From Vicinamibacterales bacterium (GTDB lineage Bacteria; Acidobacteriota; Vicinamibacteria; Vicinamibacterales; JAMQPK01): a DNA stretch of 64,000 bases. The DNA lies in the NCBI GenBank assembly GCA_023717525.1, contig JAMQPK010000220.1:35026-99025 (forward strand). The letters are read 5' to 3'. Of this stretch, positions 2,259 to 32,992 are shown piece by piece. The position numbers and the translations under genes are program-made. Numbering within the stretch: position 1 is the stretch's first letter; every line of letters starts with the position of its first letter. The notes under the pieces are model-generated. The model ran no database searches and had not been told where the DNA came from. It saw only the letters and a list, made by a program, of their open reading frames with translations.

Positions 2259-3821
2259 GTGAGCGAGCGATCACTCAGCCGCCGCGACCTGCTTCGCGGA
2301 GGAAGGGACGTGGGCGGCCTGCTGGCGTTGTCTGCGCTGCCACTCGAAGCGGCTCAGACGGCTCTTCGCAGTGCGCCAGACGTTTACCAGTCGATCGGCG
2401 TCCGGCCGCTCATAAACGCCCGCGGCACGTTCACGATCATCAGCGGCTCGCTCATGCTGCCCGAGGTCCGCGCCGCCATGGACGCGGCCGCGAAACACTA
2501 CGTGCACCTGGACGAACTGGCGGAAGCGGTCGGCGCTCGGCTCGCCGTGCTCACGAAGGCCGAATGGGGCCTCGTGACGGCAGGCTGCAGCGCGGGCCTG
2601 ACGCTTGCCACGGCCGCCTGTGTCGCCGGCGGCAACCCCGACCTCCACATCCGCGTACCGAATCTGGCGGGCTTCCCCAGGGACGAAGTCATCATCCCGA
2701 AGCATTCCCGCAACGTGTACGACGCGGCCCTGCGAACAGTCGGGGTCCGTGTGATCGAGGTCGAGACCGTTGCCGAGCTCGAGTCGGCGCTCGGCCCGCG
2801 CACCGCGATGATCTACATCATGGCGAGCCCGCGCGTCGACGCGAGTCCGCTCAACTTGAAGGCGATGGCTGCGATCGCGCAATCGAGAGGAGTCCCGATT
2901 CTCGTCGACGCGGCGGCGGAAGTTCTGACGATCCCCAACGTGCACCTCCAGAATGGCGCGTCGCTCGTGGGTTACAGCGGCGGCAAGTGCTTGCGCGGCC
3001 CGCAGACCGCTGGTTTGCTGCTCGGCCGAAAGGATCTCGTGAAGGCCGCATGGGTTCACAGCGCCCCGCATCACGGGCCCGGCCGTGCGCTGAAAGTCGG
3101 AAAAGAGGAAGCCATCGGGATGCTGATGGCCGTCGAGATGTGGGTCAAGCGGGATCACGACGCGGAATGGAAGCAGTGGACGTCAATGCTCGACCACGTT
3201 GACGGCCGCATGCGTCAAATTGCCGGCGTGACGACGGTGGTCAGCCAGCCGAATGGTCTTTCCAATCGGACACCGTCGCTGCGGGTGCTCTGGGATCCCG
3301 CGGTCCGCGGACTCACGAGCGATGCCGTCGTGCGCACGCTGCTCGAGACCGAACCTCGAATCGCAACGGCTGGAACACGGCAGGACAAGCTGAGCGGAGT
3401 GTCCATCACGCCCTACATGATGTCCCCTGGAGACGAGAAGATCGTCGCCGATCGTTTGGCTGCCGTGCTCTCGGCGGGCCGGCCTTCTAGCGTGTCTGCC
3501 CGATCGTCGGCGCCGGTCGCCGATGTTACCGGCCGATGGGACGTGCGCATCGACTACGCGGCAGCTCGATCGACGCACACCCTCTACTTACGGCAGCGTG
3601 GCAGCGACATCGATGGCTCCCACCAGGGCGAGTTCATCACCCGCGACGTGTCGGGCACGATCGACGGCGACGCCATCCGGCTCCGCAGCGCATTCAGCGA
3701 GGAGCACGGCGATGCGATTACGTTCGTCTTTACGGGAAAATTGACTGGCAGCGCGATGTCCGGGGCGCTGGACATGGGCGAGTATCTCGGCGCCACGTGG
3801 ACGGCCACGCGACGGGGATGA
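2259..3821 (+). CDS. Tat-signal SelA-like PLP-dependent enzyme (aminotransferase class V fold) with C-terminal beta-rich domain
   Basis: SRRDLLRGG Tat-like motif; SelA-related core (YQSIGVRPLINARGTFTIISGS...GYSGGKCLRGPQTAGLLLG, candidate PLP lysine); AAGGAGG RBS before GTG start. Confidence 0.8.
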   Translation: MSERSLSRRDLLRGGRDVGGLLALSALPLEAAQTALRSAPDVYQSIGVRPLINARGTFTIISGSLMLPEVRAAMDAAAKHYVHLDELAEAVGARLAVLTKAEWGLVTAGCSAGLTLATAACVAGGNPDLHIRVPNLAGFPRDEVIIPKHSRNVYDAALRTVGVRVIEVETVAELESALGPRTAMIYIMASPRVDASPLNLKAMAAIAQSRGVPILVDAAAEVLTIPNVHLQNGASLVGYSGGKCLRGPQTAGLLLGRKDLVKAAWVHSAPHHGPGRALKVGKEEAIGMLMAVEMWVKRDHDAEWKQWTSMLDHVDGRMRQIAGVTTVVSQPNGLSNRTPSLRVLWDPAVRGLTSDAVVRTLLETEPRIATAGTRQDKLSGVSITPYMMSPGDEKIVADRLAAVLSAGRPSSVSARSSAPVADVTGRWDVRIDYAAARSTHTLYLRQRGSDIDGSHQGEFITRDVSGTIDGDAIRLRSAFSEEHGDAITFVFTGKLTGSAMSGALDMGEYLGATWTATRRG

Positions 3822-5074
3822 TCGTCGATCGTCGATCGTCCATCGTCCATCGTCGATCGTCCATCGTCGTGGTGATCGGCATGCTTGCGCTTGCCGCAAC
3901 GCTGCCGGCGGCAGCGCCGAAGTACGACCTTGTACTGCGCGGCGGACATGTGATCGACCCGCGCAACGGGATCAGCGGCATCCGCGATGTCGCGGTGGCT
4001 GGCCGGACAATCGCCAGTGTGGCGGCCAGCATCAGCCCCGCCGATGCGTCGAAGGTGATTGATGTCTCGGGTTTGTATGTGGTCCCCGGCCTGGTCGACA
4101 TCCACACGCACGTCTATGCCGGGACGGGGGAGAAGGATTCCTACGCCGGCGACCTCAGCGTTTACCCGGACACGTTTGCGCTGCGTTCGGGTGTCACAAC
4201 CGTTGCCGATGCCGGTAGTTCTGGCTGGCGGAACTTCGAAGACTTCAAACAGCGCATCATTGATCGCTCGACGACGCGCGTCCTGGCGTTTCTCAACATC
4301 GTCGGCCAGGGAATGCGCGGCGGCAAGTTCGAGCAGGATCTCGGCGACATGATGGTGCAACCGGCTGCCGATATGGCTCGGCGGTATCCTGGCGTCATCA
4401 TCGGCATCAAGACCGCGCACTACTCAGGGCCGGAGTGGACGCCGGTCGACCACGCTGTCGAGGCCGGCACCCTTGCCGGTGTTCCCGTGATGGTCGATTT
4501 CGGCGCGAACAAGCCCGAGCGTCCGGTTGCCGATCTGTTGACGATGAAACTGCGGCCTGGCGACATCTATACTCATGTGTTTTCGGGATTACGCGGCGAG
4601 CTCGACGGCGCGGGACGCCTCAACCCGGGGCTGGCTGCGGGGCGGAAACGCGGTGTGCTGTTTGATTTGGGGCACGGTGCTCGAAGCTTCAGGTGGGACG
4701 TTGCCCAGGCGGCCATGAAGGAACAGTTTCTGCCGGACACGATTTCCACGGACCTGCATCTGGAGAGCATGAACGGCGCAATGAAGGACGTGTTGAACGT
4801 GATGAGCAAGTGTCTCGTGCTCGGGCTGACGGTCGATCAGATCGTGCAGCGCGCGACCTGGAACGCCGCGCGCGCGATCAAGCAGGACGGTCTGGGGCAC
4901 TTGTCCCCTGGCGCCGGCGCCGACATCGCGGTGCTCCGATTGGAACGCGGAAGCGTCGGGTTGCCCGATGCGTACGGCAGCAGGCTCGAAGGGGCTGGGC
5001 GCTTTCTGAACGAGCTGACGGTACGGGATGGGAAGATTGTCTACGATCTCAACGGCATTGCCATCAGGAGGTGA
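3818..5074 (+). CDS. Amidohydrolase/deacetylase family metallohydrolase
   Basis: YDLVLRGGHVIDPRNGISGIRDVAVAGRTI...VVPGLVDIHTHVY; metal ligand motifs. Start uncertain: ATG 3818 overlaps upstream stop but the first codons are a 7-bp repeat array; a GTG near 3868-3873 is an alternative. Confidence 0.85.
   Translation: MIVDRRSSIVHRRSSIVVVIGMLALAATLPAAAPKYDLVLRGGHVIDPRNGISGIRDVAVAGRTIASVAASISPADASKVIDVSGLYVVPGLVDIHTHVYAGTGEKDSYAGDLSVYPDTFALRSGVTTVADAGSSGWRNFEDFKQRIIDRSTTRVLAFLNIVGQGMRGGKFEQDLGDMMVQPAADMARRYPGVIIGIKTAHYSGPEWTPVDHAVEAGTLAGVPVMVDFGANKPERPVADLLTMKLRPGDIYTHVFSGLRGELDGAGRLNPGLAAGRKRGVLFDLGHGARSFRWDVAQAAMKEQFLPDTISTDLHLESMNGAMKDVLNVMSKCLVLGLTVDQIVQRATWNAARAIKQDGLGHLSPGAGADIAVLRLERGSVGLPDAYGSRLEGAGRFLNELTVRDGKIVYDLNGIAIRR
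3821..3869. repeat. Heptamer tandem array A, 7 x ATCGTC(G/C)
   Basis: Read directly: ATCGTCG ATCGTCG ATCGTCC ATCGTCC ATCGTCG ATCGTCC ATCGTCG. Confidence 0.95.
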
Positions 5075-10973: not shown

Positions 10974-11048
10974 CTGGTCCTTGGTCCTTCGTCCTTCGTC
11001 CTTGGTCCCGACGATGGACGATGGGCCATCGACGATGGACGATGGACG
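10974..11048. repeat. Heptamer array B: 5 units (T/C)T(G/C)GTCC then 5 units ATSGRCS in opposite orientation
   Basis: CTGGTCC TTGGTCC TTCGTCC TTCGTCC TTGGTCC - CGACG - ATGGACG ATGGGCC ATCGACG ATGGACG ATGGACG; the second half is the reverse complement of the array A unit. Confidence 0.95.
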
Positions 11049-12595: not shown

Positions 12596-12623
12596 TTAGT
12601 TATTGGTCGTCAGTCGTTGGTCG
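12596..12623. repeat. Heptamer array C (upstream of four-helix-bundle gene)
   Basis: TTAGTTA TTGGTCG TCAGTCG TTGGTCG in 7-bp register. Confidence 0.8.
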
Positions 12624-12655
12624 TGCGCGGGCAGGGTTCTTGCCGTGCTCTCGAC

Positions 12656-13039
12656 ATGATCGCAAAGACTCTCATCGATTTACAGGTCTATCAGAAAGCG
12701 CTCGTCGGATCGTTCGCAGTTTCTGCACTCTTGAAGCACCCCCAGCTGCGCAAAGACCGCAAACTGAGCGAACAACTTGGCGCAGCCGCCGATTCGGTGT
12801 GCAGCAACATCGCCGAAGGGTTCGCACAGCAGTCCGACCGGAAATTCACGCTCTATCTCTTTGTTGCACGAGGATCGGCCAACGAGGTACGCGCGCATCT
12901 GGCTGTGGCCCGCAACCGAGACCATATCACCGCCGAGGAACTTTCAGAACTGAGCCGTACCTACGACGAGATCGGGCGGATGTTGACGCGCTTCATCCAG
13001 TATCTGCGCCGGTCGGATCGCCGGGAGCAGGCAAAGTAG
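12656..13039 (+). CDS. Four-helix-bundle protein, S23/23S rRNA intervening-sequence protein (Avd-like) family
   Basis: MIAKTLIDLQVYQKALVGSFAVSALLKHPQLRKDRKLSEQLGAAADSVCSNIAEGFAQQSDRKFTLYLFVARGSANEVRAHLAVA...; SNIAEGFAQ...ARGSANEVRAHL is typical. Track start at 12341 is an over-extension. Confidence 0.85.
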   Translation: MIAKTLIDLQVYQKALVGSFAVSALLKHPQLRKDRKLSEQLGAAADSVCSNIAEGFAQQSDRKFTLYLFVARGSANEVRAHLAVARNRDHITAEELSELSRTYDEIGRMLTRFIQYLRRSDRREQAK

Positions 13040-13064
13040 GTTCTTGGTCCTTTGTCCCCGGTCT
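13037..13064. repeat. Heptamer array D (immediately downstream of four-helix-bundle gene)
   Basis: TAGGTTC TTGGTCC TTTGTCC CCGGTCT in 7-bp register; the stop codon TAG is in the first unit. Confidence 0.7.
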
Positions 13065-29793: not shown

Positions 29794-31368
29794 CTACGGG
29801 AGGATTGTGAGCGTAATGTTGGTGACCTGCCAATCCCAATGTCGGCTCACGGGGTTATACGCATAGGTTTCGAACCACACCACGCAGGTCCCGGCCGTCC
29901 CGGGAGCGGGTATGCCCTGCACGAGCGCCGTTCCATCCCCACGATCGACCAGCGTCAAACCGGGTGGGAGCAGAACTCCATGGTCAGGGTGATCAACCGG
30001 AAGGAGAGAAATCCACTGATTGATCACAGTTGCCGCTGGGTAGCCAGCCGTCGTGAGTGTAAAGCTGCCGAATGTTCCGACCCTGAACGGAGGAGGGTTT
30101 CCGCTCGTGAAGCTAGGATACTCGTGCACGGTGAGCGTGAACGGTTTGGTCGCCGGTTTCATGTTTCCGCTTGTTGCCGTCACCGTCAGAGGATAGACAC
30201 CGCCCGTTCCGGATGCGGCGCGTCCGGTCAGAAGTAGCGATCCATTCCCTTGCTGGATCGTTTGAATGCCCGACGGAAGGGACCCGACTACCGAGAGGGA
30301 ACCAGTACCCTGGAACATGAAGCTCTGCTGATTTCCCATCTCGAAAGTTCTCGCGGCATCGGTCGTGGTAATCCTCAGCCCTGCATACGAACCAACCCAG
30401 ACGCCGCCGGTGAAGCTCGGGTCGTACCCGTAGTAGCTGCGCAGGTAGCTCAGATTTCTCCCGTCGAAGACGAGTACATGAGGTCCGCCGCCCGGACCCG
30501 CGCCAGTAATGATGTCTATCACGCCGTCAAGGTTCTCATCGCCGGCCGCAACGGAAACGCCGCCACGGAAGGCCGGATCGTAGGCGTAAAAGCTCGCTAG
30601 ATAGCTGAGCGTGCGCCCGCTGCGGACGATGACGTGCGGACCGCCACCGGGTCCCGCACCTGTAATGATGTCTGCCAGTCCGTCCCGGTCGATATCGCCG
30701 GCCGCTACGAACACGCCCCCCCTGAACGCCGGATCGTACGCGTAGAAGCTGGCGAGGTAAGTGAGATACGGGCCACTGCGGACGGTGACGTGCGGCGCAG
30801 CCCCTGGTCCGGCTCCGGTGAGGATGTCGTCGAACCCGTCGCCGTTGACATCGCCGGAGGCGACAGTGACACCGCCACGGAACGACTGGTCGTAGGCGTA
30901 GAAGCTTGCTAGATAACTCAAGTCGACGCCGTTGAAGACCACCACGTGCGGGCCTCCGCCAGGACCGGCGCCGGCAATGATGTCGGTGACTCCGTCGCCA
31001 TTGAAGTCGCCAGCCGCCACGAAAACGCCTCCGCGGAATGACGGATCGAATGCGTAAAAACTGGCGAGGAGGCGCCGGTCCCATGTGCCACTGAAGACCT
31101 TGATATGGGGGCCACCGCCCGGGCCGGCACCCGTGATGAGATCAAGTACACCGTCGCCATTGACGTCGCCTACTGCCACATGCACGCCACCAAGAAAATC
31201 GTAGCCGTATGCCCCGAAGTAGGAGCAGTAATCACAGGTAGAGCCCAGGGGACCGCCTACCAGAGGTGGACTTCCAGGTCCCGGGCCATACGCGAGCTGC
31301 GCGGTTGCAGGCGAAGAGATCGCGAGCGCGGCGATGACGACGAGCGCAGCCTTGCTTGCAATTGCCAT
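29794..31368 (-). CDS. FG-GAP/VCBS-repeat secreted protein with Ig-like C-terminus (paralog 1)
   Basis: Signal peptide; repeats RGGVFVAAGDFNGDGVTDIIAGAGPGGGPHVVVFNGVDLSYLASFYAYD; putative Ig: LPSGIQTIQQGNGSLLLTGRAASGTGGVYPLTVTATSG. Confidence 0.85.
   Translation of the reverse strand: MAIASKAALVVIAALAISSPATAQLAYGPGPGSPPLVGGPLGSTCDYCSYFGAYGYDFLGGVHVAVGDVNGDGVLDLITGAGPGGGPHIKVFSGTWDRRLLASFYAFDPSFRGGVFVAAGDFNGDGVTDIIAGAGPGGGPHVVVFNGVDLSYLASFYAYDQSFRGGVTVASGDVNGDGFDDILTGAGPGAAPHVTVRSGPYLTYLASFYAYDPAFRGGVFVAAGDIDRDGLADIITGAGPGGGPHVIVRSGRTLSYLASFYAYDPAFRGGVSVAAGDENLDGVIDIITGAGPGGGPHVLVFDGRNLSYLRSYYGYDPSFTGGVWVGSYAGLRITTTDAARTFEMGNQQSFMFQGTGSLSVVGSLPSGIQTIQQGNGSLLLTGRAASGTGGVYPLTVTATSGNMKPATKPFTLTVHEYPSFTSGNPPPFRVGTFGSFTLTTAGYPAATVINQWISLLPVDHPDHGVLLPPGLTLVDRGDGTALVQGIPAPGTAGTCVVWFETYAYNPVSRHWDWQVTNITLTILP
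30400..31200. repeat. About 156-bp coding repeats (52-aa FG-GAP units), paralog 1
   Basis: Unit starts recur near 30401, 30559, 30715, 30870, 31027 and 31187 (approximate). Confidence 0.8.
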
Positions 31369-31375
31369 CTTGCCT

Positions 31376-32992
31376 CTACGGAGCAATTGTGATCGTAATG
31401 GTCGCCCACGAACTTCCAACGTAAAACGGCACCAGGTAGGTGCCCACCTTGTCTGGAGTCGGCGTACCACTCAGGGTAGCCGTGCCGTCGCCACGGTCGA
31501 CCAACGTCAGGCCGGTCTGCGACAGCGACGACAGCGGCGGAGACCACATACCTGGGACAAAGAAGGCTGGGCTGATTGTGGCAGGCCCAGGGTATGCTGC
31601 CGTCGTCATCGTAGCGCTGCCAAATGATCCGACGTGAAACGGTGGTGGATCTCCACTTGTGAAGTGTGGAGGTTCTAGTGCCGTCAGCCTGAAGTGTTGA
31701 ATGACGGAGTGTGTGGGCCCGCTCGTGGCGGTAAACGTCAGCGGGTAAATCCCCCCAAATCCAGACGCGATGCATCCTGTGACCACCAACGACCCGTCTG
31801 GCTGCGGATCAGCCCGGAGGCCCGGTGGAAGTGTCTCAGTAAGTGAGACCGTCGGCCTGCCAGGACCCGAGGCCGCAACTCTGAAGCTGCTCAGCATCGA
31901 AGGGCAACCAGTGAATGTGATTAAGGATGCTTCATCGCTCGTCACGAAGTGGAGACCCGCGTACGCGCCGACCCAGACGCCAGCTGTCATCGTCGGAGCG
32001 TCGGCGAGGAAACTCGCCACGTAATATAAGTTGCTGCCGTCAAACGCGATCACGTGCGGTCCGCCGCCTGGTCCCGCGCCGGCGATGATATCCGGTGTAC
32101 CGTCGCCATTGATGTCGCCTGCGGCGACAGAAACGCCGCCGCGAAAAGAGGGATCGTAGGCGTAGAAACTCGCGAGGTAGTTAAGCGTAAGAGCACTGCG
32201 GACGGTGACATGCGGCCCGCCGCCTGGTCCCGCACCGGTAATGATGTCGGCGTATCCATCCCGGTCGATGTCGCCGGCAGCTACGAACACGCCGCCCCGG
32301 AAGATCGGATCGTACGCGTAGAAGCTGGCGAGGTAGGTCAGGGAGGGCCCGCTGCGAACAGTTACGTGGGGCGCAGCGCCGGGGCCAGCGCCGGTGACGA
32401 TGTCGTCGAACCCATCGCCGTTGACGTCGCCGGCCGCGACGCTCACACCGCCACGGAACATGGGGTCATACGCGAAAAAGCTGGCCAGATAACTGAGGTC
32501 CACACCATTGAAGACCACCACATGCGGCCCTCCACCCGGACCAGCGCCGGCAATGATGTCGGCGAAACCGTCGCCATTGAAATCGCCGGCCGCCACGAAG
32601 ACGCCGCCGCGGAATGAGGAACCGAACGCGAAAAAACTTGCCAGCAAGCTTCGGTCTTTGCCGCTGAACACCTCAATATGGGGCCCACCCCCAGGGCCTG
32701 CGCCGGTAATTGTGTCCAGCACACCGTCGCCGTTCACGTCACCAAAAGCCACGTGCACGCCGCCTGAGAAGGAGGGGCCATACGGAAAGAACGGTGTGAG
32801 GTAAGTCCATCCTGCGTCTCGGTCGAACGGGAAGTTCTTGAGGGTGAAGCTAGCTTGTGACGGTCCACTGAGACCTTCCGTTGAGCCTAGCCCAACGATG
32901 AGTTGGGCCGCAGCGGCTGAAGGTACCAAGAGCACCGCGATGACGAGAGCCAGACTCGTCGCGAAACGGGTGAGGGGAGAGCGGGTCGGCAT
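31376..32992 (-). CDS. FG-GAP/VCBS-repeat secreted protein with Ig-like C-terminus (paralog 2)
   Basis: Same architecture as neighbour: FRGGVFVAAGDFNGDGFADIIAGAGPGGGPHVVVFNGVDLSYLASFFAYD; TLPPGLRADPQPDGSLVVTGCIASGFGGIYPLTFTATSG. Confidence 0.85.
   Translation of the reverse strand: MPTRSPLTRFATSLALVIAVLLVPSAAAAQLIVGLGSTEGLSGPSQASFTLKNFPFDRDAGWTYLTPFFPYGPSFSGGVHVAFGDVNGDGVLDTITGAGPGGGPHIEVFSGKDRSLLASFFAFGSSFRGGVFVAAGDFNGDGFADIIAGAGPGGGPHVVVFNGVDLSYLASFFAYDPMFRGGVSVAAGDVNGDGFDDIVTGAGPGAAPHVTVRSGPSLTYLASFYAYDPIFRGGVFVAAGDIDRDGYADIITGAGPGGGPHVTVRSALTLNYLASFYAYDPSFRGGVSVAAGDINGDGTPDIIAGAGPGGGPHVIAFDGSNLYYVASFLADAPTMTAGVWVGAYAGLHFVTSDEASLITFTGCPSMLSSFRVAASGPGRPTVSLTETLPPGLRADPQPDGSLVVTGCIASGFGGIYPLTFTATSGPTHSVIQHFRLTALEPPHFTSGDPPPFHVGSFGSATMTTAAYPGPATISPAFFVPGMWSPPLSSLSQTGLTLVDRGDGTATLSGTPTPDKVGTYLVPFYVGSSWATITITIAP
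31978..32775. repeat. About 156-bp coding repeats (52-aa FG-GAP units), paralog 2
   Basis: Unit starts near 31978, 32134, 32290, 32446, 32602 and 32758. Confidence 0.8.

Follow-up and report, generated by a model that had tools for sequence, protein, structure and literature searches.

The S23 gene at positions 12656-13039 of a Vicinamibacterales DNA stretch (contig JAMQPK010000220.1; the whole 64,000-nucleotide stretch is referred to as the window) lies between two arrays of a degenerate 7-bp repeat. Comparison with its homologs suggests that it belongs to a mobile element of a kind not described before, an S23 gene between heptamer arms. The S23/IVP protein family has been on record since the 1990s and, to our knowledge, has never been assigned a function. 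An earlier note on this DNA proposed that the gene makes a single unit with the heptamers beside it, one that is mobile, RNA-structured, or a source of dispersed repeats. The core of that proposal, a mobile unit linked to dispersed repeats, came through the tests that the note had named, and we consider it very probable that the S23 gene and its arms constitute a mobile repeat-gene unit. The fuller explanation, in which such units also leave gene-free derivatives and S23 binds the arms, is probable as a whole.

Most S23 genes lie between inverted arrays with private heptamers

The window belongs to an acidobacterial metagenome-assembled genome (G000; 3.78 Mb, 242 contigs) with 17 PF05635 genes, and the flanks of all 17 were read. 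In sixteen copies, the gene is flanked by two tandem arrays, one the reverse complement of the other (for example, AGGGCAG x5 ... CTGCCCT x5, GATCGTC ... GGACGAT, and AGAAGTA ... TACTTCT). The repeat period is mostly 7 and at times 8, 9, 10, or 14. Prevalence was counted with one fixed geometry and threshold for all sets. Inverted arms flank 39 of 45 S23 copies in further genomes of the order, 9 of 10 copies on cyanobacterial plasmids, and 47 of 76 copies sampled by protein similarity across phyla, the last sample being biased to proteins near the query (Acidobacteriota, Planctomycetota, Bacteroidota, Pseudomonadota, Chloroflexota, Bacillota, candidate phyla radiation bacteria, Methanophagales archaea, and others). 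Only 0-0.4% of random placements have such arms. The enrichment of heptamers in S23 flanks, on which the earlier note had let its proposal depend, is thus borne out.

The heptamer varies between copies and agrees within a copy; the distance between inverted heptamers averages 1.02 of 7 within copies versus 3.38 between them. The earlier note had described both arrays by one degenerate unit (approximately WTSGTCS); no such consensus is common to the copies, each of which has a private heptamer. The arms have a median length of 4.9 units, and upstream arms are more often purine-rich (53 versus 18, p = 4e-5). When two proteins are at least 60% identical, their heptamers are within one mismatch in 67% of cases (nine pairs only); the likeness fades below 60% identity. 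Foldback copying, which implies a mirror order of repeat variants across the two arms, was rejected; this order was seen in only 3 of 38 cases, so the arms are not simple mirror copies. At one locus in genome G015 (L257), an inner GGGGCAA/TTGCCCC pair is nested in an outer GAGTCAT/ATGACTC pair around a single S23 gene. At three further loci (the G000 copy C35 at L011:9881-10264, L037, and L030), the downstream arm extends into the 3' end of the S23 open reading frame (ORF), where its translation gives a short repeat (e.g., DQGPRTKGPRT).

The window copy

Both arrays and the ORF are present in the window, with the letters that the earlier note gave. On the forward strand, the degenerate upstream arm (TTAGTTA TTGGTCG TCAGTCG TTGGTCG, 12596-12623), identified from sequence and period scores, is followed by a predicted sigma-54-like (-24/-12) promoter, GGGCAGGGTTCTTGCC, which was recognized by its GG-N10-GC pattern at 12629-12644 directly 5' of the ORF. 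The forward-strand gene encodes a four-helix-bundle protein of 127 amino acids, identified by profiles, AlphaFold2, and PDB match, and the degenerate downstream array (TAGGTTC TTGGTCC TTTGTCC CCGGTCT, 13037-13064, same strand) starts at its stop codon. Taken singly, each array is weak (7-bp-period scores of 11.2 both upstream and downstream, the upstream array reaching 13.9 at period 14). Of 4000 random placements of a 360-bp interval in the DNA of this genome, none had both, one array no more than 100 nt before the interval and the other no more than 60 nt after it.

The description of the gene as bracketed by arrays stands for both sides. Among the copies of G000, their common direction (TTGGTCG upstream, TTGGTCC downstream) is peculiar to the window copy, the sole one of the 17 whose arrays do not match as complementary terminal repeats around the S23 ORF. 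We read it as an atypical, old or damaged member, whose degenerate arms no longer match in inverted orientation. The TTGGTCC unit of its downstream array matches the arms of copy C35, and its upstream unit, TTGGTCG/TTAGTCG, recurs in hairpins and arrays elsewhere in the genome (L137:1993-2198 and L146:8257-8322). S23 copies at L043, L050, and L096 likewise have strongly similar arms that are direct and not inverted. The evidence for movement comes from other copies, and the relatives compared all lie outside the family of the window genome.

Arms and gene are inserted together

Nostoc plasmids more than 90% alike offer filled and empty sites in a homologous operon, A-B-C. Between A and B, pNsp_a, pC052_D, and pNPM1 carry an S23 unit whose arms are of the AGTCAGA type; its S23 gene is broken in pNPM1. 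In pNsp_c, pC052_B, p057_H, pC052_A, and pNsp_b, the A-B junction consists of 3 bp and has no array. A second unit, with GGGAAAA arms, was seen only in pNsp_c, where it separates B from C; a third stands between nrdB and nrdA on plasmid pNe_5 of Nostoc edaphicum and is missing from a Calothrix plasmid. The arms and gene therefore arrive together. In these plasmids, and also at one locus of the genus described below, the comparison of empty sites called for in the earlier note finds gene and arrays lacking together.

Inverted arms also surround S23 in CRISPR operons of cyanobacterial plasmids (cas6-S23-cas4 at L215 and cas10-S23-cmr3 at L216). S23 genes have been noted in cas loci (PMC3936711, PMC10910872). 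The arms make these genes look like insertions and not cas genes, which suggests that the reported examples are insertions as well.

Gene and arrays also vary together within a genus that we take to be Luteitalea-like (genomes G003, G015, G026, G030, and G031). The S23 gene at locus L200 of G003 has GGACGGAGG arms, and G026 has that gene there too. The site is empty in G015 and G030, with neither arrays nor ORF. The GGACGGAGG arrays number, approximately, at least 54 in G003 and at least 42 in G026; among the matches listed there were 0 in G015, G030, and G031. For ATGACCA, the heptamer of the L196 arms, about 13 arrays were counted in G003 and none in the other congeners; at the L196 locus, G015 has an S23 gene with other heptamers. 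At the sites of solo hairpins, the orthologous intergenic regions of congeners are too diverged for exact target sites to be read, and a short hairpin or a different array is present in some of them. One intergenic position (L300 in G003, L324 in G015, and L325 in G026) has different heptamer arrays in the three genomes, as if it had been reused.

Gene-free arrays and hairpins match resident S23 genes

Measured on sampled stretches, period-7 arrays have a density of 12.5 per 100 kb in G000 and 10.0 in G003. In eight genomes of the order that lack S23, the figure is 1.3 per 100 kb (4 in 307 kb, of which 3 are in one genome), so that arrays are about ten times rarer where the gene is lacking, as the one-unit proposal would have it. 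Arrays with a period of 5, 11, or 13 are almost absent. Of 45 solo arrays in G000, 49% are an exact match to the heptamer of one of the genome's own S23 genes; equal-sized heptamer sets from other organisms give 3%, with a maximum of 7%. The corresponding values for G003 are 18% versus a null of 1%.

The window itself contains two such gene-free features, neither assigned to a strand. A solo hairpin at 10975-11048 is composed of a TTGGTCC/TTCGTCC array and then a GGACGAT array, the heptamers of S23 copies C35 and C105, and a solo GATCGTC array at 3820-3868, again with the heptamer of C105, runs from the stop codon of the preceding gene. Elsewhere in G000, hairpins or single arrays were located at L017:675-747, L024:7283-7384, L151:17720-17818, and L137:1993-2198. 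Dispersed inverted repeat pairs that match gene-side repeats are thus present. In the G000 DNA read, 10 of 10 inverted arm pairs spaced 200-1500 bp apart enclose S23, and the remaining pairs are at most 136 bp apart. Solo GGACGGAGG hairpins have a fixed starting phase with AGGACGG outermost, in a count that is somewhat favored by the way the junction was placed (by seeking AGGA near the segment start), and the match to the heptamer decays inward from 6.6 to 3.0 of 7. The window also holds two arrays of a 156-bp tandem repeat (30485-30918 and 32055-32614), which are ~72-73% alike.

The S23 protein and its promoter

The window ORF scores 88.8 bits against PF05635 (cut-off 33.8) and 85.1 bits against TIGR02436 (cut-off 24). 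AlphaFold2 gave a confident four-helix bundle (pLDDT 96.9). In a Foldseek search, the nearest PDB structures were 2gsc, the best, and 2rld, followed by Avd of the Bordetella phage diversity-generating retroelement (DGR; 4dwl, with a TM of 0.74, and 8ube). Both 2gsc and 2rld are crystal structures with five chains, and the Xanthomonas S23 protein has been described as a homopentamer (PMC4990558). S23 proteins are basic, with a median pI of 9.6. The fit between a five-unit arm and a five-subunit ring is suggestive, no more.

A GG-N10-GC sigma-54 site is tightly placed within 80 nt upstream of 45 of 63 S23 genes of the order, as judged from predicted gene starts. The same site precedes 7% of control ORFs (6% after shuffling) and 3% of S23 genes of other phyla. 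The window genome encodes RpoN. Most S23 genes of the order are predicted to have near-leaderless, RpoN-dependent transcripts. For the window copy, the predicted transcript starts beside the ATG and is nearly leaderless, which would leave the upstream arm outside the mRNA. A structured 5' RNA between arm and ORF was also considered and rejected; in this order the apparent hairpins are a better fit to sigma-54 promoters, and they were not seen in other phyla.

Comparison with known systems

The closest parallel is the REPIN-RAYT system, in which doublets of repetitive extragenic palindromic (REP) sequences form hairpins and are associated with REP-associated tyrosine transposases (PMC3116915). 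In both cases, a chromosomal gene stands beside inverted repeats that recur without the gene as dispersed hairpins, and a genome may hold several gene-repeat families, each with its own repeat. The gene here encodes a PF05635 four-helix bundle, however, and not a Y1/HUH transposase, and the arms are copy-private tandem arrays of 7-10 bp units. We read S23 units as working in a similar way, in which the S23 pentamer may supply the repeat specificity.

In Leptospira and Coxiella, the 23S rRNA contains intervening sequences that carry an S23p ORF, and the one in Coxiella has two to three tandem GACAGAT heptamers before the ORF (PMC4990558). They resemble the present units in that the S23p ORF lies within complementary terminal repeats, as in 16 of the 17 G000 copies, though not in the window copy. 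The units described here differ in being outside rRNA, in having their own promoter in this order, and in their dispersed solo arrays; there was no Rfam match in the window and no rRNA match at 20 further loci. The classical intervening sequences may be a special case of S23 units. A conservative author could file the unit as a form of the rRNA intervening-sequence element.

Avd shares the four-helix fold (4dwl, 8ube) and a distant family resemblance. It differs in that no reverse transcriptase is required here, and the window protein scores 14.6 against the Avd family model NF033474, far under the cut-off of 80. Cyanobacterial short tandemly repeated repetitive (STRR) sequences are hairpin-forming 7-bp tandem repeats of no known function (PMC2670836), and heptamer arrays have been described in Beggiatoaceae (TAACTGA), Cyanobacteria, and Bacteroidetes (PMC4679880). 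Both kinds are 7-bp tandem repeats like those studied here, and neither paper draws a link to S23 genes. Of the S23 genes examined on cyanobacterial plasmids, 10 of 10 were seen to have inverted arms, which suggests such a link. A term-based literature search, with subscription papers outside its coverage, returned nothing that joins S23 genes to heptamer arrays beyond the Coxiella case. The unit is read as a new kind of element because every known system that we considered failed a defining test.

Proposed mechanism and alternatives

We propose that the unit is an S23 gene between two inverted short-tandem-repeat arms, usually of about five heptamers each, and that it inserts whole and mostly between genes. 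Each unit lineage has a private heptamer, and the gene-free hairpins and single arrays would be non-autonomous derivatives, standing to the unit as REPINs do to RAYT genes. The basic S23 pentamer may recognize its cognate arms when these are folded as single-stranded DNA or as RNA; once bound, it could enlist replication or a host enzyme so that the hairpin is copied. The role of S23 itself as the repeat-binding mobility factor is plausible, and we put it forward tentatively.

Several observations weigh against a mobile unit of this kind. Its movement is read from sequence comparison, none having been observed in real time, and a possible target-site duplication, at one Nostoc junction, is 3-6 bp at best. 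S23 has no recognizable nuclease or recombinase. The window copy lacks an inverted arm match, and about one-third of the cross-phylum copies fall under the strict threshold, some of them broken, at contig edges, or direct-armed. Orthologous S23 genes in congeners may have unlike heptamers, so the coupling is not rigid.

The alternative that survives best, which we nevertheless consider unlikely, is that S23 is an RNA-binding regulator. Its ring would bind about five tandem heptamers in a transcript, as TRAP binds spaced triplets, and the arrays would be the sites of a regulon and not transposed copies. The median arm of 4.9 units and the five chains of 2gsc and 2rld agree with this, as does the presence of the Avd fold in DGR ribonucleoprotein particles (8ube), and arrays are often beside stop codons (3820 and 13037 in the window). 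Yet the sigma-54 start predicted at or near the start codon in this order would place the upstream arm outside the mRNA. A regulator also fits poorly with units gained as whole insertions at unrelated junctions, with congeners that lack entire array families, and with solo hairpins that have transposon-like fixed ends.

An origin of the arrays in ordinary repeat slippage, or in an unrelated family of miniature inverted-repeat transposable elements, with S23 genes merely landing in or beside them, is very unlikely. Some bacteria are indeed rich in heptanucleotide repeats, described with no mention of S23 (PMC4679880), and partly inverted arrays also enclose three non-S23 genes in array-dense G003, probably by chance. 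But the empty sites examined (the L200 locus and the Nostoc operon) have no arrays, the heptamers match within a copy, solo arrays fit the heptamers of resident S23 genes, and S23-free relatives are array-poor. A retroelement in which S23, like Avd, partners a reverse transcriptase in trans is hardly credible, since the fold match to 4dwl is opposed by the low score against NF033474 and by the lack of RVT_1 in genomes with 6-12 S23 copies.

No RVT_1 match was found in six S23-rich genomes (complete G003 and G015; drafts G014 and G024-G026), and in G000 the search returned only two adjoining partial reverse transcriptase frames, on contig C48 and apart from the window. The requirement for a reverse transcriptase is largely refuted, and an Avd-type mechanism is not supported. 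A Y1 transposase (PF01797) was rejected as a required partner, there being no match anywhere in G000. Carriage by phages was also rejected; no match was found in 50,697 phage records.

The S23 gene with its heptamer arms, as a mobile unit, may belong to something wider. With the same caution as for the role of S23 itself, we can envisage a class of transposase-less elements, in bacteria and some archaea, in which a pentameric S23 recognizes the heptamer array private to its lineage and causes hairpins that bear this array to spread; rRNA intervening sequences, the S23 genes of cas operons, and cyanobacterial STRRs would be its traces. This would suggest that the S23 genes of cas loci are no part of CRISPR systems and were brought there by a selfish unit. 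The link between S23 and heptamers gives a testable role both to S23/IVP proteins and to the unexplained heptanucleotide repeats of bacteria. If true, it would add to known bacterial mobile DNA a REPIN-like system with a non-enzymatic protein.
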